Origin: Saprospiraceae bacterium
GTDB taxonomy: Bacteria > Bacteroidota > Bacteroidia > Chitinophagales > Saprospiraceae
Reading direction: 5' to 3'
NCBI GenBank assembly: GCA_022842725.1
Contig: JALHOZ010000004.1
Coordinates: 1 to 64,000, forward strand
DNA length: 64,000 nt
Shown: piece by piece, positions 49,597 to 55,456 of the stretch
How positions within the stretch are numbered: the first letter of the stretch is position 1
Layout of the letters: each line of letters opens with the position of its first letter
Position numbers and translations under genes: made by a program
Notes under the pieces: generated by a model
The model's input: only the letters and a program-made list of their open reading frames with translations
What the model was told of the DNA's origin: nothing
Database searches by the model: none

Positions 49597-50121
49597 TTAT
49601 AACGGATCTTGCTTTGGAACTTTTTTAAAAATCACAGCAGCAAGCAACGCAAAAATAATGACATAAAATAAAGACCCAAACATTCCTAATAAAGTATTTT
49701 GAAATCCAAATAATTTTTCAGGACTCATTTCATCATCAATACCTTCTTCTATACTCAATAACATATCTTCATCACTTATCATCCATCGATACATTGCTTT
49801 TTGACTTTCAACATATCTTTCGAAAATTTCTGTTTTTGTTTCTTCTGAGATTACACTATGGTAAATCAAGGTAAACAACATGGACATAAATAAGCCGATA
49901 AATATAATCAAAAAATACAATTTAAACAATTCACCAAAAGTGGCATACCCTTCATTTTTTGATTTAAATTCCCGCCCTGCCAACCAAAGCAGTAAAATCA
50001 GCAATAAAATTCCCACGACTGAATTCAAACCCATCCCGATAAAACCATGATAATACATCATCACTGAAATAATGCTGAATGCCCCGTATATTAATCCGAA
50101 CTTTAAAAAAATGTTTTTCAT
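49597..50121 (-). CDS. DUF4199 family membrane protein
   Basis: Protein of 174 residues with four membrane spans and the DUF4199 layout: two short N-terminal spans, a KNEGYATFGELFKLYFLI segment before the third, an approximately 45-residue acidic loop (SEETKTEIFERYVESQK) and a C-terminal span. The function is unknown. It is followed on the minus strand by a terminator-less gap before the PPC gene. Confidence 0.82.
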   Translation of the reverse strand: MKNIFLKFGLIYGAFSIISVMMYYHGFIGMGLNSVVGILLLILLLWLAGREFKSKNEGYATFGELFKLYFLIIFIGLFMSMLFTLIYHSVISEETKTEIFERYVESQKAMYRWMISDEDMLLSIEEGIDDEMSPEKLFGFQNTLLGMFGSLFYVIIFALLAAVIFKKVPKQDPL

Positions 50122-50211: not shown

Positions 50212-51786
50212 TTATTCTTTCAATTTATAAAACGGAATGTTTATATGACTTATCCCAAAGGTATCCTTACTAATTCCGAACTTATCGTCATTTTTTTCCT
50301 TGTGCATCTTCCTTTTGATGTATATGTTATGAAACCCATTTTCCATTGATTTTACAGGAATATAACATAATACACCTTTTTCCCCTTTATTAGGGTGGAT
50401 GTACCACTTACATTGCAGACTATCGGAATATGAAACATTATCAATCTGCACATCAAATATTTTTAAAAATGTTTTTAATCTGAGATGATCCATACCGGCC
50501 CAATATTTTCTGAGTGAATCCCATTTTACATCATCGAGACTATCTATCCTAAGCAACAATTCTTTGCGATTTTTTTCGTCTTTACTGCTTTTTCGAAGTT
50601 TTAATACTTCGGATTTTTGTTTCGTAAAAAATTTTTTAATATTCTCCTCCAATGTGTCACTGACCCATTCATCCTGTATTTCAGTGATAAAACCTGTTTT
50701 AAAATTTGGAGGAATGCCCTCAATTTTTTCGAGGTATTTATCATCTTTATTTATCATTCTTAAAAATAATGACAAATGATCTCCGGAAACTTCATACGAA
50801 TTCAAACTAACCAAAGGAATGATAGTTTTATCCTTAGACACGTTATTTTTTAGTAAATAATTATAACGTAAATCATCGTAATTATTCCAAAACACCAAAT
50901 GTTCTGATGTACAATCCATACAACCTTCAGGAATGGGAAAATTAGCCGAATTTAAAACTTTGATATTCGGAATACAGATAAATACTATTAAAAAATAAGG
51001 AATAGAAAACCATATAAACCTCCGTGAATAAGCATTATCAATAAAATTATATACCAACGCCCTATAAAAAAATGACAAAGTTAAAATATTAAAAACCCTG
51101 TAGATGTAAAAATAGATTTTTGAAATGGTTTTATCTTTTACCTTTTTAAATCCTCCCATAAAAACTACATCAATCCCGTAAATCAGACCCAAAAGAAAAT
51201 AAGGTAACGCAATCATACTGATAAAAATCCCCTGATCACTACTATCCAAATTATCAGTGAGAGATTCCACACCCGAAATAATTAATACAAAGACACCAAA
51301 ATAGGCCATTAGGGAGACAAATATAAAAAACAACAAAAAAGTATATGCATATAAAATACTACAAAAACGTTCCAGTTTTTCAATATAGACATCAAAACGA
51401 CCCACCTTTTTTTCAAGATGTTTTTCAAAAATTTCACTATAATTCAACGATTTGTAATCAACTTCACCACTTACATAGCGAAGTCCGATTGCCCCTATCC
51501 AAAATCCTCTTGCCAATATATGCACTATCAGGTTTATAATAAATATCACCCAACTACCATAAAACAAATCACTGGCAAATGAAATAGGGTTTAGTGTTGT
51601 ATAATCATACATTTCCGCATAAACGGCAAAGTCTTCAATATACACCCTGGCTTCATAAACCAGGTATAAAGCAAGACCTGATATGACCAGTTCCAATTGC
51701 CAGCTCTCCTGCTGAAGTTTCTCAAGCCATTGTGTAAAAATATTTCTTTGAACATTTTGACCTTCGTTCTGATTTTGATTTTCCAT
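50212..51786 (-). CDS. Large membrane protein of unknown function
   Basis: Protein of 524 residues. The first 290 residues hold about six membrane spans, including LYVYEARVYIEDFAVYAEM near the start and several Phe/Tyr-rich spans. The remaining 230 residues are soluble and presumably periplasmic or cytoplasmic (CMDCTSEHLVFWNNYDDLRY, SYSDSLQCKWYIHPNKGEKG). A coiled region surrounds residue 390 (QKSEVLKLRKSSKDEKNRKE). No family recognised. It lies directly downstream of the three-fold membrane-module cluster and may be its last gene. Confidence 0.75.
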   Translation of the reverse strand: MENQNQNEGQNVQRNIFTQWLEKLQQESWQLELVISGLALYLVYEARVYIEDFAVYAEMYDYTTLNPISFASDLFYGSWVIFIINLIVHILARGFWIGAIGLRYVSGEVDYKSLNYSEIFEKHLEKKVGRFDVYIEKLERFCSILYAYTFLLFFIFVSLMAYFGVFVLIISGVESLTDNLDSSDQGIFISMIALPYFLLGLIYGIDVVFMGGFKKVKDKTISKIYFYIYRVFNILTLSFFYRALVYNFIDNAYSRRFIWFSIPYFLIVFICIPNIKVLNSANFPIPEGCMDCTSEHLVFWNNYDDLRYNYLLKNNVSKDKTIIPLVSLNSYEVSGDHLSLFLRMINKDDKYLEKIEGIPPNFKTGFITEIQDEWVSDTLEENIKKFFTKQKSEVLKLRKSSKDEKNRKELLLRIDSLDDVKWDSLRKYWAGMDHLRLKTFLKIFDVQIDNVSYSDSLQCKWYIHPNKGEKGVLCYIPVKSMENGFHNIYIKRKMHKEKNDDKFGISKDTFGISHINIPFYKLKE

Positions 51787-51949: not shown

Positions 51950-52375
51950 TTATAGAGTGACTTCTTCCCACATTGGCTCTTCTCTTTTGTCAAGAAAAGC
52001 TAAAAACATTAATGCCGCAAATATTAGTATTGAAAAATCTTTATTCTGAAATTCGGTTTTATCATAAAGACCAAATAATATTAATATCAAACCAATAACA
52101 GACAGGCTAAATTTAAAATAAACATGCCACTTTGGTTCCTTTATCTCAAGATTAAAATAATAATCGCCGGGTTCCTTAACCGTAAAAAGTTTGGTGTAAA
52201 GTTATTTACCAACGACTGCCTTAAGTTTGATTGGTCCGGGTATCACTTCTACAGTTGTTGATTCTGACGAACTTAATGAACCTAGCTTATCATCATTGAG
52301 ATATAAAGTAAAAACTACCTGCTCATATTTTTTATGAGACATCCGGGTAATGTGAATAGTGGCCATATTATCCAT
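51950..52375 (-). pseudogene. Beta-domain/2-TM protein gene interrupted by an in-frame TAA
   Basis: Direct translation from the ATG at 52375 gives 57 residues (MDNMATIHITRMSHKK... to KLKAVVGK), then TAA at 52202-52204. The same frame then runs open for 83 further codons to a stop at 51950-51952 (LYTKLFTVKEPGDYYFNLEI..., with two hydrophobic spans). Total length and layout (N-terminal beta domain, then two C-terminal spans) match the frameshifted gene at 54.2-54.6 kb. A Gln (CAA) to TAA change would explain it. It starts 15 bases after the 184-residue membrane protein gene. A sequencing error is a possible alternative. Confidence 0.75.
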
Positions 52376-52389
52376 TTCTATAAAGTTGA

Positions 52390-52944
52390 TTATTTATTTT
52401 TAAAGTTTTGCAAACTGTCTTGCCTTATTTGTTCCAGCGCGTCTTTTTTGCCGGCTTCCTGACCTTTACTTCGTACATATTCCCGAAGTTGTGCATATCC
52501 GACAAGGGATATTATTATTACAACTATAATAGAATTAAATAATAAAAAAGAATCTTTGGTAAGGTGTTGTAGAGTGCTTCTATTGTCTTCTTCAACTTTA
52601 GGTTTCAGGGTCCCCCATCGGTCATTTTTATCCATCCATACCATGGCTTTCCAATACATCCAAACTCCAAGTAAAAATAGGATTGTAAACAGAGACCCGA
52701 TAATGATATGATCAATGTTGATGATAAATACAACAATAAATCCAATAAACCCTATAAAATAGAACAAAACAGTTTCTTTTAAATCAAATAAATTAACCAT
52801 CCCAATGTTGAACGACAAATTTACATACCAGGGTGCGCCTTTATATCTGGCAGGTTGATCCATATATTTGAGTAAATATACTCTTGCTATGATCTGAGCA
52901 ATAATCATAGGAATAAAGGCTATAAAAAAATAATTACTTGACAT
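52390..52944 (-). CDS. Multi-span membrane protein, module 3
   Basis: Protein of 184 residues with about four hydrophobic spans (3-22, 56-75, 77-100, 133-152), a KAMVWMDKNDRWGTLKPKVE loop and a charged C-terminal tail (RSKGQEAGKKDALEQIRQDS). No family recognised. It occupies the same position relative to a beta-domain/TM gene as the 165- and 166-residue proteins of the two upstream modules, and is followed 15 bases later by the interrupted gene at 51.95-52.38 kb. Confidence 0.72.
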   Translation of the reverse strand: MSSNYFFIAFIPMIIAQIIARVYLLKYMDQPARYKGAPWYVNLSFNIGMVNLFDLKETVLFYFIGFIGFIVVFIINIDHIIIGSLFTILFLLGVWMYWKAMVWMDKNDRWGTLKPKVEEDNRSTLQHLTKDSFLLFNSIIVVIIISLVGYAQLREYVRSKGQEAGKKDALEQIRQDSLQNFKNK

Positions 52945-53031
52945 TTTGTTTCGATTTTAAAATGAAGAATAAAAGTTTCCGTCAAGGCTATTCAGAGGCC
53001 CAAGACTCAATATTATATGTATCACTGATGT

Positions 53032-53367
53032 TTATCTATCCCGTAAGCCTAACAAAAAGCCGGCAACAACAAACAAAATTAAGATACCTAAAATAATCCA
53101 GAATCGTTGTTTCGATTTTGAATGTTGGACAATGGGTTTGTTGTCAATATTCAGATCAATCTGGAAGCCATAAGGAAAGTTGTATCCTATTTTGACCACA
53201 GCTTCTTTAGCCTGTCCATTTTCCTGAATATTGAAGGGATGTTCGATACCAAACAAAGACCATTTTTGGGATACGGTTTCTCCGTTCAGTTTTACCGTTT
53301 CGGTTCCCCAGATGTTGTTGTCCAGCTCAATAATATTGTCGCCGATGTAAAAAGTTACGAGTTTCAT
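53032..53367 (-). CDS. Beta-domain protein with C-terminal membrane span, module 2
   Basis: About 111 residues from the ATG at 53367 (MKLVTFYIGDNIIELDNNIW); the longer frame to 53418 overlaps the upstream gene. Residues 1-85 are beta-rich (TVKLNGETVSQKWSLFGIEH, GYNFPYGFQIDLNIDNKPIV), followed by a single span (FWIILGILILFVVAGFLLGL). It is the only intact one of the three beta-domain/TM genes of this cluster. Function unknown. Confidence 0.72.
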   Translation of the reverse strand: MKLVTFYIGDNIIELDNNIWGTETVKLNGETVSQKWSLFGIEHPFNIQENGQAKEAVVKIGYNFPYGFQIDLNIDNKPIVQHSKSKQRFWIILGILILFVVAGFLLGLRDR

Positions 53368-53396
53368 GTTGTTTTGTTTAAGATTAAAAAATATTT

Positions 53397-53624
53397 TTAT
53401 TTGTTGTGGATGATCCATTTTTTAGCTGATTGATACCAAAAGCTTATCACTAAGATTATGCATAAATGGATGAACCAAATATTGTACACGTAATCCATCG
53501 TGAGGAATATCAGCATGAAGAAAAATATTCCTCCTGCCCATTCAAAGGTTTTTAAATATTTGCCGTTGCCGGATAAAAAAAGCAAAGGTCTGACGAAAAT
53601 TGGTGGTTTTGGTTGGTTGTTCAT
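53397..53624 (-). CDS. Small two-span membrane protein, module 2
   Basis: Protein of 75 residues: a Pro-rich N-terminus (MNNQPKPPIFVRPLL), two hydrophobic spans (about 31-49 and 51-65) and a basic end (QSAKKWIIHNK). No family. It lies 12 bases after the 165-residue gene and just before the beta-domain gene, so it is part of the same transcript. Confidence 0.65.
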   Translation of the reverse strand: MNNQPKPPIFVRPLLFLSGNGKYLKTFEWAGGIFFFMLIFLTMDYVYNIWFIHLCIILVISFWYQSAKKWIIHNK

Positions 53625-53636
53625 TTTGTGATTTTT

Positions 53637-54134
53637 TTATGCTTTTAATGACTTTTTCCATTCATGGATTTTGGTCAGGTTGTTTTGGTAAGCCAACCCA
53701 ATAATCATGATAAAATACATGCCTGAGTATTCGTGACTTACTTTTGCTATGCTGGTTTCTAAAATTAGTAAGATGAAAGAAAAAATAAAAACCTGCCTGA
53801 TACGGTATTCATACTTTAGGTATTCAGAAATGTAGTTGACCACATCGTTTTGTTGATTTTCTAATAATTTACCCTGCTGTTGTAATAAACTTCCATACCG
53901 GTAAGCCATAAAAAACATAACACCCACACATGCGAAATAAATTGGTAATGTGTATAAGATAGCATTTGAATCACTTATTATCTTAAAAATCTCTTCTTTT
54001 TGGTAGGTAAAAAGCACAGGTAATATCGCAATAATCGGGTACGATAAAAATGTACCTACCCTATTATAAGAAGCTTTCTGTTTCATAAACAAAAAACTTT
54101 TTTCATGAAAAAATGGTGCGGGTGTTGTTTCCAT
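53637..54134 (-). CDS. Multi-span membrane protein, module 2
   Basis: Protein of 165 residues with four spans (about 29-45, 63-80, 114-130, 137-150) and a middle amphipathic helix (RYGSLLQQQGKLLENQQNDV). It ends in TKIHEWKKSLKA, recalling the DPMEWKKIDTV end of the 166-residue protein at 54.66-55.16 kb. The two are probably paralogues, although their overall identity is low by eye. Function unknown. Confidence 0.7.
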   Translation of the reverse strand: METTPAPFFHEKSFLFMKQKASYNRVGTFLSYPIIAILPVLFTYQKEEIFKIISDSNAILYTLPIYFACVGVMFFMAYRYGSLLQQQGKLLENQQNDVVNYISEYLKYEYRIRQVFIFSFILLILETSIAKVSHEYSGMYFIMIIGLAYQNNLTKIHEWKKSLKA

Positions 54135-54198
54135 TGGATTTATTTTGTTTCTCAGGATTGACTATTAAATTTTATTTGATGTTTATATAATTAAAAGG

Positions 54199-54605
54199 TT
54201 ACTTTTCTACAGGATTATTTGACTCAATTAACTCCAGTTTCCGGCTGAATAATAATAAAAAACTTGTCGGAATAATAAGTAGGAGTCGTATCCATTTTGT
54301 GATTTTATCCGGATTAATATCATAAAAAAATATCACTGCTACAAGTATAATGACTGCCGTTAAAATATATGGAATATTTTTTTTACACGCAGGTGTAAAG
54401 GGCCCGGAAGATATATATTTTTAATATTGGATACCGGAATCCAGAAAATGCTGAGGTAAATAGCCACTTTTCCATTGGAGGCGGCTTCGGCTTCCAAACT
54501 AATTTCTTTATCATTTTTACCCAGCTTGCCAACTTTTTTATTGTTTACCATTATATCATAACTAAAAATGCTTTTATCCACCAGATTAGAAAATTTGATT
54601 AACAT
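54199..54605 (-). pseudogene. Beta-domain/2-TM protein gene with a frameshift in an A8 tract, module 1
   Basis: The frame from ATG at 54605 gives 81 residues ending LHLRVKKIFHIF at a TAA. In the adjacent frame, starting at the A8 tract at 54377-54384, translation continues KKNIPYILTAVIILVAVIFF... with two spans and ends LIESNNPVEK at a stop at 54199-54201. Adding one A would join both parts into a protein of about 135 residues, the same size and layout as the interrupted gene at 52 kb. Loss of an A, a homopolymer sequencing error, or programmed slippage on A-AAA-AAA are all possible. Confidence 0.75.
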
Positions 54606-54654
54606 AATATGATTTTAAAATTTATTATTGAATTATATGACAACATACAACTTG

Positions 54655-55155
54655 TTAGCTGACCCATTTCACGGTATCAATTTTTTTCCATTCCATTGGG
54701 TCTTTGATTTTCGGATTGGAAAATAAAATCATACCCATGATCGCAACAATTGAAAGCAGTTCAATAATTTCCGGGTTTCTTTTTATAAAAAGCAAAAGCA
54801 GAAACATAAAGAAAAAATAGGCGGCCTTCAGCGGTATTTCAGATATGCTGAATTTGGATATATACGGGCAAATACTGTCAAAATCATTGGTCAGATTTTT
54901 ACCCATTTCGTTTAGCTCGTTGCCTCTTATCCAAACATATACAAACATAGCCAAAATATAGAGGGAAACAAAAATCGTCACCAATGGCTCATCCGAAAAA
55001 AGGGACATAAATTTTGGATCATCAAAACACATCAAAGCCAGTCCAAAGAGGATAAAAGCCGGGTATATTGATAAATTGTATTTATTTGCCTGCGCCTTCT
55101 TTTTCATTTTTTCAAAACGAGGCTCATCAATCTGGGTTTCGTGTTGGATATTCAT
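54655..55155 (-). CDS. Multi-span membrane protein, module 1
   Basis: Protein of 166 residues: a charged N-terminus (DEPRFEKMKKKAQANKYNLS), four spans (about 28-44, 61-78, 112-127, 131-146) and a DPMEWKKIDTVKWVS end. It is followed 49 bases later by the frameshifted beta-domain gene, repeating the order of module 2. No family recognised. Confidence 0.7.
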   Translation of the reverse strand: MNIQHETQIDEPRFEKMKKKAQANKYNLSIYPAFILFGLALMCFDDPKFMSLFSDEPLVTIFVSLYILAMFVYVWIRGNELNEMGKNLTNDFDSICPYISKFSISEIPLKAAYFFFMFLLLLFIKRNPEIIELLSIVAIMGMILFSNPKIKDPMEWKKIDTVKWVS

Positions 55156-55224
55156 TTTTTACTGATTTAAAGTTGAAAAATTTAAATGTTTGGATACTAA
55201 TAAATATTTGAATGCTACATAAAT

Positions 55225-55422
55225 TTATTCATTTTTTAATCTCATTCTGGTTTCCGAAAATTCATTAAAAACCTCAGATACAAAATCATACAAATAAGAG
55301 GAAACCATAAAAAATCCACCTATAACAAGAAGCCTTCTTGACCATGGTTTGGAAGGGTTAAAAACACCAACGAGGAATATAATAAATCCTAAGATGCTGA
55401 TAATGTCTAATATGTTTTTCAT
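55225..55422 (-). CDS. Small two-span membrane protein, first gene of the module cluster
   Basis: Protein of 65 residues: MKNILDIISILGFIIFLVGV, then a short basic loop (NPSKPWSRR), a second span (LLVIGGFFMVSSYLYDFV) and a charged end. Its start codon lies inside one arm of a 41-nt palindrome, so translation may be controlled by that structure. No family. It may correspond to the 75-residue protein of module 2. Confidence 0.65.
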   Translation of the reverse strand: MKNILDIISILGFIIFLVGVFNPSKPWSRRLLVIGGFFMVSSYLYDFVSEVFNEFSETRMRLKNE

Positions 55423-55456
55423 TTGATTTTACTTTAAAAGTAAAATCAAATGAAAA
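55416..55456. promoter_or_regulatory. 41-nt perfect palindrome over the start codon of the module cluster
   Basis: Twenty bases on each side pair perfectly around a single central base at 55436; the arm is TTTTCATTTGATTTTACTTT. The start codon of the 65-residue gene (55420-55422, minus strand) lies within the arm. In RNA it would fold into a long A/U-rich hairpin burying the start codon. In DNA it could be an operator or a cruciform-forming site. There is no GC-rich stem plus T-run, so a simple terminator for the upstream ybjQ-like gene is less likely. Confidence 0.8.

Follow-up and report, generated by a model that had tools for sequence, protein, structure and literature searches.

FAIM protects animal cells from stress and protein aggregation. 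Mammalian FAIM is reported to prevent the aggregation of proteins (PMC9570119). Published accounts describe the protein as lacking a homologue, and one of them places its origin in the holozoan ancestor, so that bacterial relatives would be the part of greatest interest. Two Pfam families, DUF2846 (PF11008) and DUF4199 (PF13858), also bear on the locus described here.

We analysed a run of genes at 51950-55422 in a 64,000-nucleotide stretch of DNA from a Saprospiraceae bacterium (the window). We favour, with moderate confidence, a reading as a mixed cluster: eight short genes for membrane proteins in which one unit was once duplicated and has partly decayed, and which include one FAIM-fold member.

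Organization of the gene run

All genes of the run are codirectional on the minus strand, and the ORFs of 166, 165 and 184 amino acids that a first-pass annotation had reported in one direction are present. The run begins with S1 (55225..55422), a small two-span protein of 65 aa, and continues with the 166-aa multi-span protein M1 (54655..55155), the split B1, composed of a DUF2846-like beta domain and a two-span tail (54199..54605), the 165-aa multi-span protein M2 (53637..54134) and the small two-span membrane protein S2 of 75 aa (53397..53624). These are followed by B2, an intact 111-aa protein with a predicted FAIM-fold beta domain (residues 1-84) and one C-terminal span (53032..53367, the start at 53367 being placed from homologues), the 184-aa multi-span protein M3 (52390..52944) and the interrupted B3, with a DUF2846-like beta domain and two spans (51952..52375). 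The intergenic gaps from S1 to B3 are 12-87 nt. Small two-span proteins had been described as lying in between. Both exist, and family scans place neither in a family, but S1 is 5' of M1, S2 is between M2 and B2, and units two and three have no small gene separating them. Genes for PorP/SprF and a very large ORF occur near the run, and no long DNA repeat connects the units.

Among ten cluster proteins scanned against Pfam and NCBIfam, DUF4199 was the sole family above its curated cut-off; the DUF4199 protein has one additional sub-threshold NCBIfam match, and the lowest sub-cut-off E value in the other proteins was 0.0042, for M1 against 7TMR-DISM_7TM. Codon usage, a weak test for genes so short, gives M1, the N-terminal part of B1 and B2 values over the 95th percentile of spurious ORFs, which is 0.112; M3 is just under it (0.107), and S1, S2, M2, the B1 tail and both parts of B3 are lower.

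A perfect inverted repeat of 20 + 1 + 20 nt (55416..55456, assigned to neither strand) overlaps the start codon of S1. Its arms are 100% complementary, and it is the sole perfect close inverted repeat of more than 14 nt listed for the window. The central 33 nt are unique in the genome at up to 3 mismatches, the predicted fold has an energy of -19.3 kcal/mol, and Rfam gave no match over 49-57 kb, which includes the repeat. We consider it a candidate operator or leader hairpin.

The 524-residue membrane protein said to follow the cluster is present downstream (50212..51786, minus strand) and belongs to an unnamed family that is widespread in relatives (39 of 148 genomes, this one included). A DUF4199 protein (49597..50121, minus strand; PF13858, E 2.4e-20) is its partner gene. 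A DUF4199 match also adjoins the 524-aa relative in 8 of 19 relative loci, each viewed with about 1.5 kb of flank, and the paralogue of the 524-aa protein in the same genome has one as well. No relative of the M proteins, the S proteins or B1 was found beside such pairs in the neighbourhoods searched, and we judge the pair to be separate from the cluster.

Multi-span proteins and gene order

M1 and M2 are homologous. They are 23% identical, their local alignment reaches a z of 13.6 (0 of 300 shuffles), and they have a common EWKK end, as the first-pass annotation had noticed for two of the multi-span proteins. M3 resembles neither of them (z 0.6 and -0.2, respectively), and its span spacing differs from theirs. 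Simple hydropathy indicates four spans in M1 and M3, and three over the threshold used in M2. S1 resembles the tail of B1 (z 5.0, 0 of 300 shuffles) and scores only 3.6 bits against the B1/B3 family profile.

Outside the window, an M1/M2 profile searched against 248 genomes of the family gave weak matches only (E 7e-5 to 9e-3; 10 genomes). Of the ten places matched, nine are pyrophosphatase-like and the other is L068. Eight of these non-self places carry what we take to be the pyrophosphatase motif and a ninth (L070) looks alike; the motif is also present in L002, the single foreign-genome match of another search with the M proteins. Two of the pyrophosphatase-like proteins were scanned, and both match PF03030 (H_PPase). 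Against the pyrophosphatase N-terminus, M2 scores 21.1 bits (0 of 1000 class-preserving shuffles) and the M1/M2 alignment has an hhalign probability of 77.7. M1 scores just 2.4 bits, a value reached by 98 of 1000 shuffles, and therefore homology of M1 and M2 to H_PPase was not accepted. M3 gave one weak match in 148 genomes, to an amino-acid permease. Two scans of genome contigs, one for M2 and one for B2, yielded no confirmed relative, in a collection that may omit records near this genome.

Conservation of the gene order elsewhere, which had been expected of a repeated module, was not found with the M1/M2 profile in 248 genomes, with M3 in 148 genomes or in 33 neighbourhoods. Eight queries (S1, M1, M2, S2, M3, the two parts of B1, and YbjQ) gave two weak matches among the 1558 ORFs of these neighbourhoods. 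B2-type genes are also present in other contexts.

Interrupted beta-domain proteins

A beta-domain protein with C-terminal spans had been described as recurring three times. B2 is intact, whereas B1 and B3 are not intact ORFs. To reach the two spans, the N-terminal part of B1 (54605-54360, 81 aa) has to change frame at an A8 run, located near 54377-54384 at the border of the beta domain and the first span. In B3 the N-terminal part (52375-52202, 57 aa) is separated from its spans by an in-frame TAA; this stop is codon 58 and coincides with the beginning of strand 6 in the modelled beta-sandwich of seven strands. The frames beyond both breaks are open and retain two spans. Should the assembly be wrong at these places, both genes may be whole in the organism.

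Pairwise comparison of B1, B2 and B3 detects little or nothing, the top value being z 2.0 between B2 and the N-terminal part of B3 (reached by 12 of 300 shuffles). Against a profile of a beta plus two-span family (A4), joined B1 scores 16.5 bits (0 of 1000 shuffles, best shuffle 8.6), its N-terminal part alone 9.4 bits, B3 read through the stop 22.8 bits (0 of 1000 shuffles, best shuffle 8.1), and B2 only 2.3 bits. A relative-seeded search recovers B3 in its own genome through the TAA at E 8.8e-5. By these profile comparisons, B1 and B3 belong to one family, with B2 outside it. The A4 alignment was drawn from 18 loci without L085, L090, L093 (this genome) and L095, and with L074 in place of L079. 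None of its 14 rows has an internal stop, and neither do 16 of the 17 other places found by the relative-seeded search (frames of 136-177 aa, and one of 306); L095, a weak place, has two. B1 and B3 thus differ from the family in not being single uninterrupted ORFs. Many beta-sandwiches match the B3 model, with a tie at the best Z of 8.5, and therefore we claim no relative from this model.

The three-fold repeated module proposed in the first-pass annotation does not hold, given that M3 is unlike M1 and M2 and that B2 is outside the B1/B3 family. Similarity of equivalent members is found for M1/M2 and, via the profile, for B1/B3, and is absent across both three-way sets. Since M1 and M2 are homologous and B1 and B3 form one family, growth by duplication holds for two copies at most.

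A predicted FAIM fold in B2

The AlphaFold2 model of B2 (mean pLDDT 88.8) has eight strands (E2-8 to E77-83) and a helix, and in this model the strands form two sheets as in the human FAIM-NTD. VIA-align compares it with human FAIM (3mx7) at Z 11.4 (rmsd 2.5, 81 aligned residues, 15% identity); the other FAIM rows (FAIM-CTD) follow at Z 7.4 and 7.2, and the next row is at 6.0. Foldseek ranks 3mx7 second (probability 1.00, E 0.094), behind an unrelated chain, and gives nothing at E 0.001 or better. With a viral fold library, too, nothing reached E 0.001, and a sequence search of the PDB with the B2 profile brought up no FAIM chains.

Sequence links to FAIM1 (PF06905) run through relatives of B2. 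The B2 profile retrieves L161 at E 1.1e-6 (28.8 bits, 0 of 1000 shuffles), and this protein passes the PF06905 cut-off (25.0 against 22 bits). Proteins of the L101 type, FAIM plus TPR, align with the B2 profile at an hhalign probability of 96.3 (E 1.7e-9); L101 matches PF06905 at E 3.3e-4 with 20.8 bits, under the cut-off, and one of six proteins of this type matches the family. PF06905 does not match B2 up to E 1, nor any of 16 relatives aligned with B2 (ten of which were rescanned as single domains), nor 9 of 10 further relatives. Bacterial FAIM1-matching proteins (A6) do not align with the B2 profile A5 (probability 2.6) or the L101 profile (probability 1.0). Against A6, the score of B2 is 4.8 bits (10 of 1000 shuffles do as well) and that of L101 is 11.7 bits (2 of 1000). 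In the other direction, the scores of the A6 members against a widened B2 profile do not rise above those of shuffles. The alignments were built as follows: A5 is A2 without L015 and L016; A6 was taken from 20 loci without L101 (TPR type) and L103 and L116 (not FAIM-like); A7 holds 6 of 30 loci, picked for near full-length matches; and the widened profile is A5 with 8 of the 14 loci found by the B2 profile, 12 of the 14 having been read.

These results could reflect convergence of B2 on a common two-sheet beta-sandwich rather than homology, as the failure of PF06905 to match B2, the lack of an alignment between the A5 and A6 profiles and the modest Foldseek value would suggest. We regard this as unlikely, because three FAIM structures head the VIA-align list, separated from the next row, and because L161 is both found by the B2 profile and above the FAIM1 cut-off. 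The most likely view is that B2 and animal FAIM are distantly related. Given that B2 itself is below the PF06905 cut-off, we do not assign it to FAIM1 and regard it only as a probable remote relative that has the fold. With one C-terminal span and no N-terminal span, the beta domain should be on the cytosolic face of the inner membrane.

Origin and possible function of the cluster

We hypothesize that the starting point was an M-B unit, in which a multi-span protein is paired with a DUF2846-like beta domain that has a two-span tail, and that a single old duplication of this unit probably yielded M1-B1 and M2...B3. S2, B2 and M3 now lie between M2 and B3. The B genes of both copies carry an interruption in the assembly, so that the M-B unit looks decayed, and we infer decay rather than error or recoding from these interruptions. 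B2 would be a membrane-tethered FAIM-fold protein on the cytosolic face of the inner membrane. By analogy with the anti-aggregation role of mammalian FAIM, it may bind or hold unfolded or partner proteins, as a holdase or an adaptor; a tethered domain of this kind is the most likely mechanism for B2, which we put forward tentatively.

The alternative closest to the first-pass annotation is a functional, undescribed envelope system that arose by three-fold M-B duplication, with M3 and B2 diverged past recognition. The tight, codirectional packing of the genes, the occurrence three times of a multi-span gene before a beta plus span gene, and the homology of M1 and M2 are all consistent with it. 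We nevertheless find it highly improbable, as the B2 domain comes from another family, M3 has a different span spacing and no similarity, two of the three B genes are interrupted, and a conserved order was not found. The envelope-system label is unproven, and the beta domains are predicted to be cytosolic, at the inner membrane. Also highly improbable is a collection of small immunity or defence genes, unrelated to one another, beside a secretion locus. In its favour, the run holds several short membrane proteins that are unrelated and for which few relatives or none were detected, and PorP/SprF and a very large ORF are nearby. PADLOC identified no defence family among the ten proteins (one weak match, E 0.038), and the presence of B2-type genes in other contexts also argues against a collection of this kind.

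The interruptions themselves could be assembly or sequencing errors, leaving B1 and B3 intact and the cluster a working set of inner-membrane proteins. The assembly is in 87 contigs, the B1 break is in a homopolymer, and the parts past each break still increase the family score. However, nine long ORFs of the window stay open across the ten A or T runs of 8-9 inside them, and the B3 break is a stop codon with no homopolymer; we give this explanation a minor but real chance. Programmed recoding, in which A8 slippage would produce soluble and membrane-anchored forms of B1 and the B3 stop would be read through, appears very unlikely. The position of the A8 run at the border of the beta domain and first span fits it, as do the open downstream frames with two spans kept, but the A4 relatives are uninterrupted, and, because the B3 stop falls at the start of a strand in the model, the short product would be an incomplete domain. 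We retain the mixed, partly decayed run as the preferred reading.

Comparison with known systems

The architectures in the proposed bacterial FAIM superfamily are FAIM plus a span, FAIM plus TPR, and FAIM plus a span and a further region. It is conceivable, though speculative, that Bacteroidota carry an old and diverse FAIM superfamily with B2 as a tethered member, that animal FAIM descends from such genes, and that the shared ancestral activity is the binding of unfolded or partner proteins. Bacterial relatives that are small, have a single domain and could be made in E. coli would allow the ancestral binding and the origin of FAIM to be tested. The locus also offers a caution: genes alike in size and span pattern need not be copies of one module.

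The 524-aa and DUF4199 genes of the window resemble the pairs seen in relatives. B1 and B3 are like DUF2846 in that six of eight scanned relatives match PF11008 (E 7.9e-6 to 1.2e-3). They are unlike it in that these relatives are all under the gathering score (best 26.3 against 34.3 bits) and add a two-span tail, and B1 and B3 are themselves interrupted; their N-terminal parts, which were the parts scanned, have no PF11008 match up to E 1, and strict membership fails. B2 is like FAIM1 in the eight-stranded fold predicted over residues 1-84 and in having a family member, L161, above the Pfam cut-off. It differs in being bacterial and below Pfam detection, and in having one beta domain and one span where animal FAIM has two domains (NTD and CTD). 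Among its own aligned relatives, 11 of 16 have TPR, whereas B2 has a C-terminal span.

Gene organization and relationships among the units

Eight short genes on the minus strand, running from 55422 to 51952 in the order S1, M1, B1, M2, S2, B2, M3 and B3, are separated by intergenic gaps of 12 to 87 nt. S1 (65 aa) and S2 (75 aa) are small two-span proteins, M1 (166 aa), M2 (165 aa, 53637-54134) and M3 (184 aa) are multi-span proteins, and each B protein has a beta domain followed by one or more C-terminal spans. Genes for a YbjQ-family protein (PF01906, E 1.2e-40) and a PorP/SprF protein are found upstream of the cluster, and 165 nt downstream are the gene for a 524-aa protein (50212-51786) and a DUF4199 gene. 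A perfect inverted repeat, with 20-bp arms around a single central base (55416-55456), overlaps the S1 start codon; the 33 nt at its core occur nowhere else in this genome at up to 3 mismatches.

The first-pass annotation had described this region as a three-fold repeated module, which holds only in part. M1 is homologous to M2 (z 13.6, reached by 0 of 300 shuffles, 23% identity), but M3 has no detectable homology to either (z 0.6 and -0.2) and a different spacing of predicted spans, and B2 is of another family than B1 and B3. Compared directly, the three B proteins show little likeness, the top z of 2.0 (B2 against the N-terminal part of B3) being reached by 12 of 300 shuffles, and no long DNA repeat joining the units was found. 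The simplest history would be a single ancient duplication of an M-B unit, giving M1-B1 and M2-B3, with S2, B2 and M3 now sitting between M2 and B3. Over residues 57-146, M2 also shows similarity to the initial spans of membrane H+-pyrophosphatase (21.1 bits, a score that none of 1000 shuffles reached); its homologue M1 does not.

S1, M1, M2, S2, M3, two parts of B1 and the YbjQ protein were searched against 1558 ORFs from 33 neighbourhoods: those around relatives of either B2 or the 524-aa protein, that of a weak M2 match, and one locus of the same genome. Two matches reached E 0.1 or better: M2 with a pyrophosphatase frame at E 2.6e-4, and M3 with a DUF4199 protein at E 0.038. Neither Pfam nor NCBIfam matches the 524-aa protein, whose family is present in 39 of 148 genomes, this one included. 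A DUF4199 match adjoins the family gene at 8 of the 19 relative loci, as well as at the paralogue in the same genome (38% identity, contig C28, 21961-23520); the two look like a separate pair.

Interrupted genes of the B1/B3 family

When read through its stop codon, B3 retrieves an uninterrupted relative of 137 aa, L074 (E 1.8e-4). With L074 as query, 17 of 248 genomes of the order have a match, including this one, where B3 is recovered across one TAA (E 8.8e-5). A profile built from 14 such proteins, with a beta domain and two spans, scores 22.8 bits with read-through B3 and 16.5 bits with joined B1, both above all 1000 shuffles, and 2.3 bits with B2; these scores place B1 and B3 in one family and B2 in another. 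Of the 18 loci of this search, eight (L084-L086, L088-L090, L092 and L096) have the relative next to an aspartate-kinase-like gene, and the two of these genes that were scanned both match AA_kinase plus ACT_9.

Both genes are interrupted. The beta domain of B1 ends in a short out-of-frame tail, and an A8 run marks the junction with a different frame that encodes the two-span tail. In B3, codon 58 is a TAA, corresponding to residue 55 of the read-through model (mean pLDDT 81.2), which is the first residue of strand 6 of seven and precedes the two-span hairpin. Decay is the likeliest explanation for these interruptions, ahead of an assembly error, which would place the frame change and the stop in the contig only, and of recoding, by which both would be bypassed.

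B2 and its resemblance to FAIM

The start of B2 was set at 53367 by its homologues. The domain occurs at E 0.001 or better in 14 of 148 relatives, this genome included, and is followed by a TPR region in 11 of 16 aligned relatives; in the closest, at 44% identity, one C-terminal span follows the domain, as in B2. Across the phylum, 14 of 395 genomes, again including this one and spread over four family-level groups, carry it at E 1e-4 or better, with a predicted span after the domain in 8 of 12 foreign loci read.

The AlphaFold2 model of B2 (mean pLDDT 88.8) has eight strands and a C-terminal helix. VIA-align places three FAIM entries on top, led by the human FAIM N-terminal domain, 3mx7 (Z 11.4, rmsd 2.5, 81 aligned, 15% identity); the other two score Z 7.4 and 7.2, and the row below them 6.0. 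Foldseek gives no match at E 0.001; its second rank, after an unrelated chain, is 3mx7 (E 0.094, prob 1.00).

Two proteins link the families in sequence. L101, a FAIM-TPR protein, scores 22.0 bits with the B2-family profile (0 of 1000 shuffles) and 20.8 bits with FAIM1 (PF06905), just under the cut-off of 22; the L101 group and the B2 group align with each other (probability 96.3, E 1.7e-9), and PF06905 matches one of the six L101-group members. L161, a foreign B2-domain locus, scores 28.8 bits with the B2 profile, more than any of 1000 shuffles, and 25.0 bits with PF06905, above the cut-off. PF06905 matches neither B2 nor its 16 first relatives, nor nine of ten further relatives that include L161. 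A profile of FAIM1-positive bacterial proteins aligns with neither the B2 group (prob 2.6) nor the L101 group (prob 1.0); B2 scores 4.8 bits against it (reached by 10 of 1000 shuffles) and L101 11.7 bits (2 of 1000), and against the widened B2 profile its members do no better than shuffles. In the PDB the B2 profile found no FAIM chain, and the FAIM1-positive profile matched 3mx7 at E 0.036 at best. Because of these PF06905 misses, profile non-alignments, shuffle-level scores and PDB results, we consider kinship between B2 and FAIM likely rather than proven, and do not assign B2 to FAIM1.

PF06905 itself matches at E up to 0.1 in 36 of 150 genomes of the family, five over the cut-off and this genome not among them, and in 1 of 14 control genomes, below the cut-off. 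Twenty of these loci were read: 17 encode FAIM plus a span, one (L101) FAIM plus TPR, and two something else. The loci L097-L100, L102 and L104-L115 form a second bacterial FAIM1-like group in the same family of genomes, with one span after the domain and lengths of 119-145 aa or, where there is a further region, about 280-310 aa; some exceed Pfam's cut-off.

Comparison with known FAIM proteins

Passages in PMC7056718, PMC6628066 and PMC9570119 describe FAIM as without homology to other proteins; PMC7056718 also dates its origin to the last common holozoan ancestor, and text of PMC6343361 reports FAIM1 in most Metazoa. Among the matches listed, open PMC text held no paper on bacterial FAIM. 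Curators may know of bacterial FAIM1 proteins, since Pfam's cut-off already admits some.

In B1, B2 and B3 alike, no span precedes the beta domain, and for this reason these domains would lie in the cytosol, anchored to the inner membrane by the spans. For B2, the most likely role, still a tentative one, may be that of a membrane-tethered holdase or adaptor, by analogy with mammalian FAIM, which in the text of PMC9570119 suppresses aggregation in cell-free assays; PMC6628066 reports the N-terminal domain of mammalian FAIM as a dimer.
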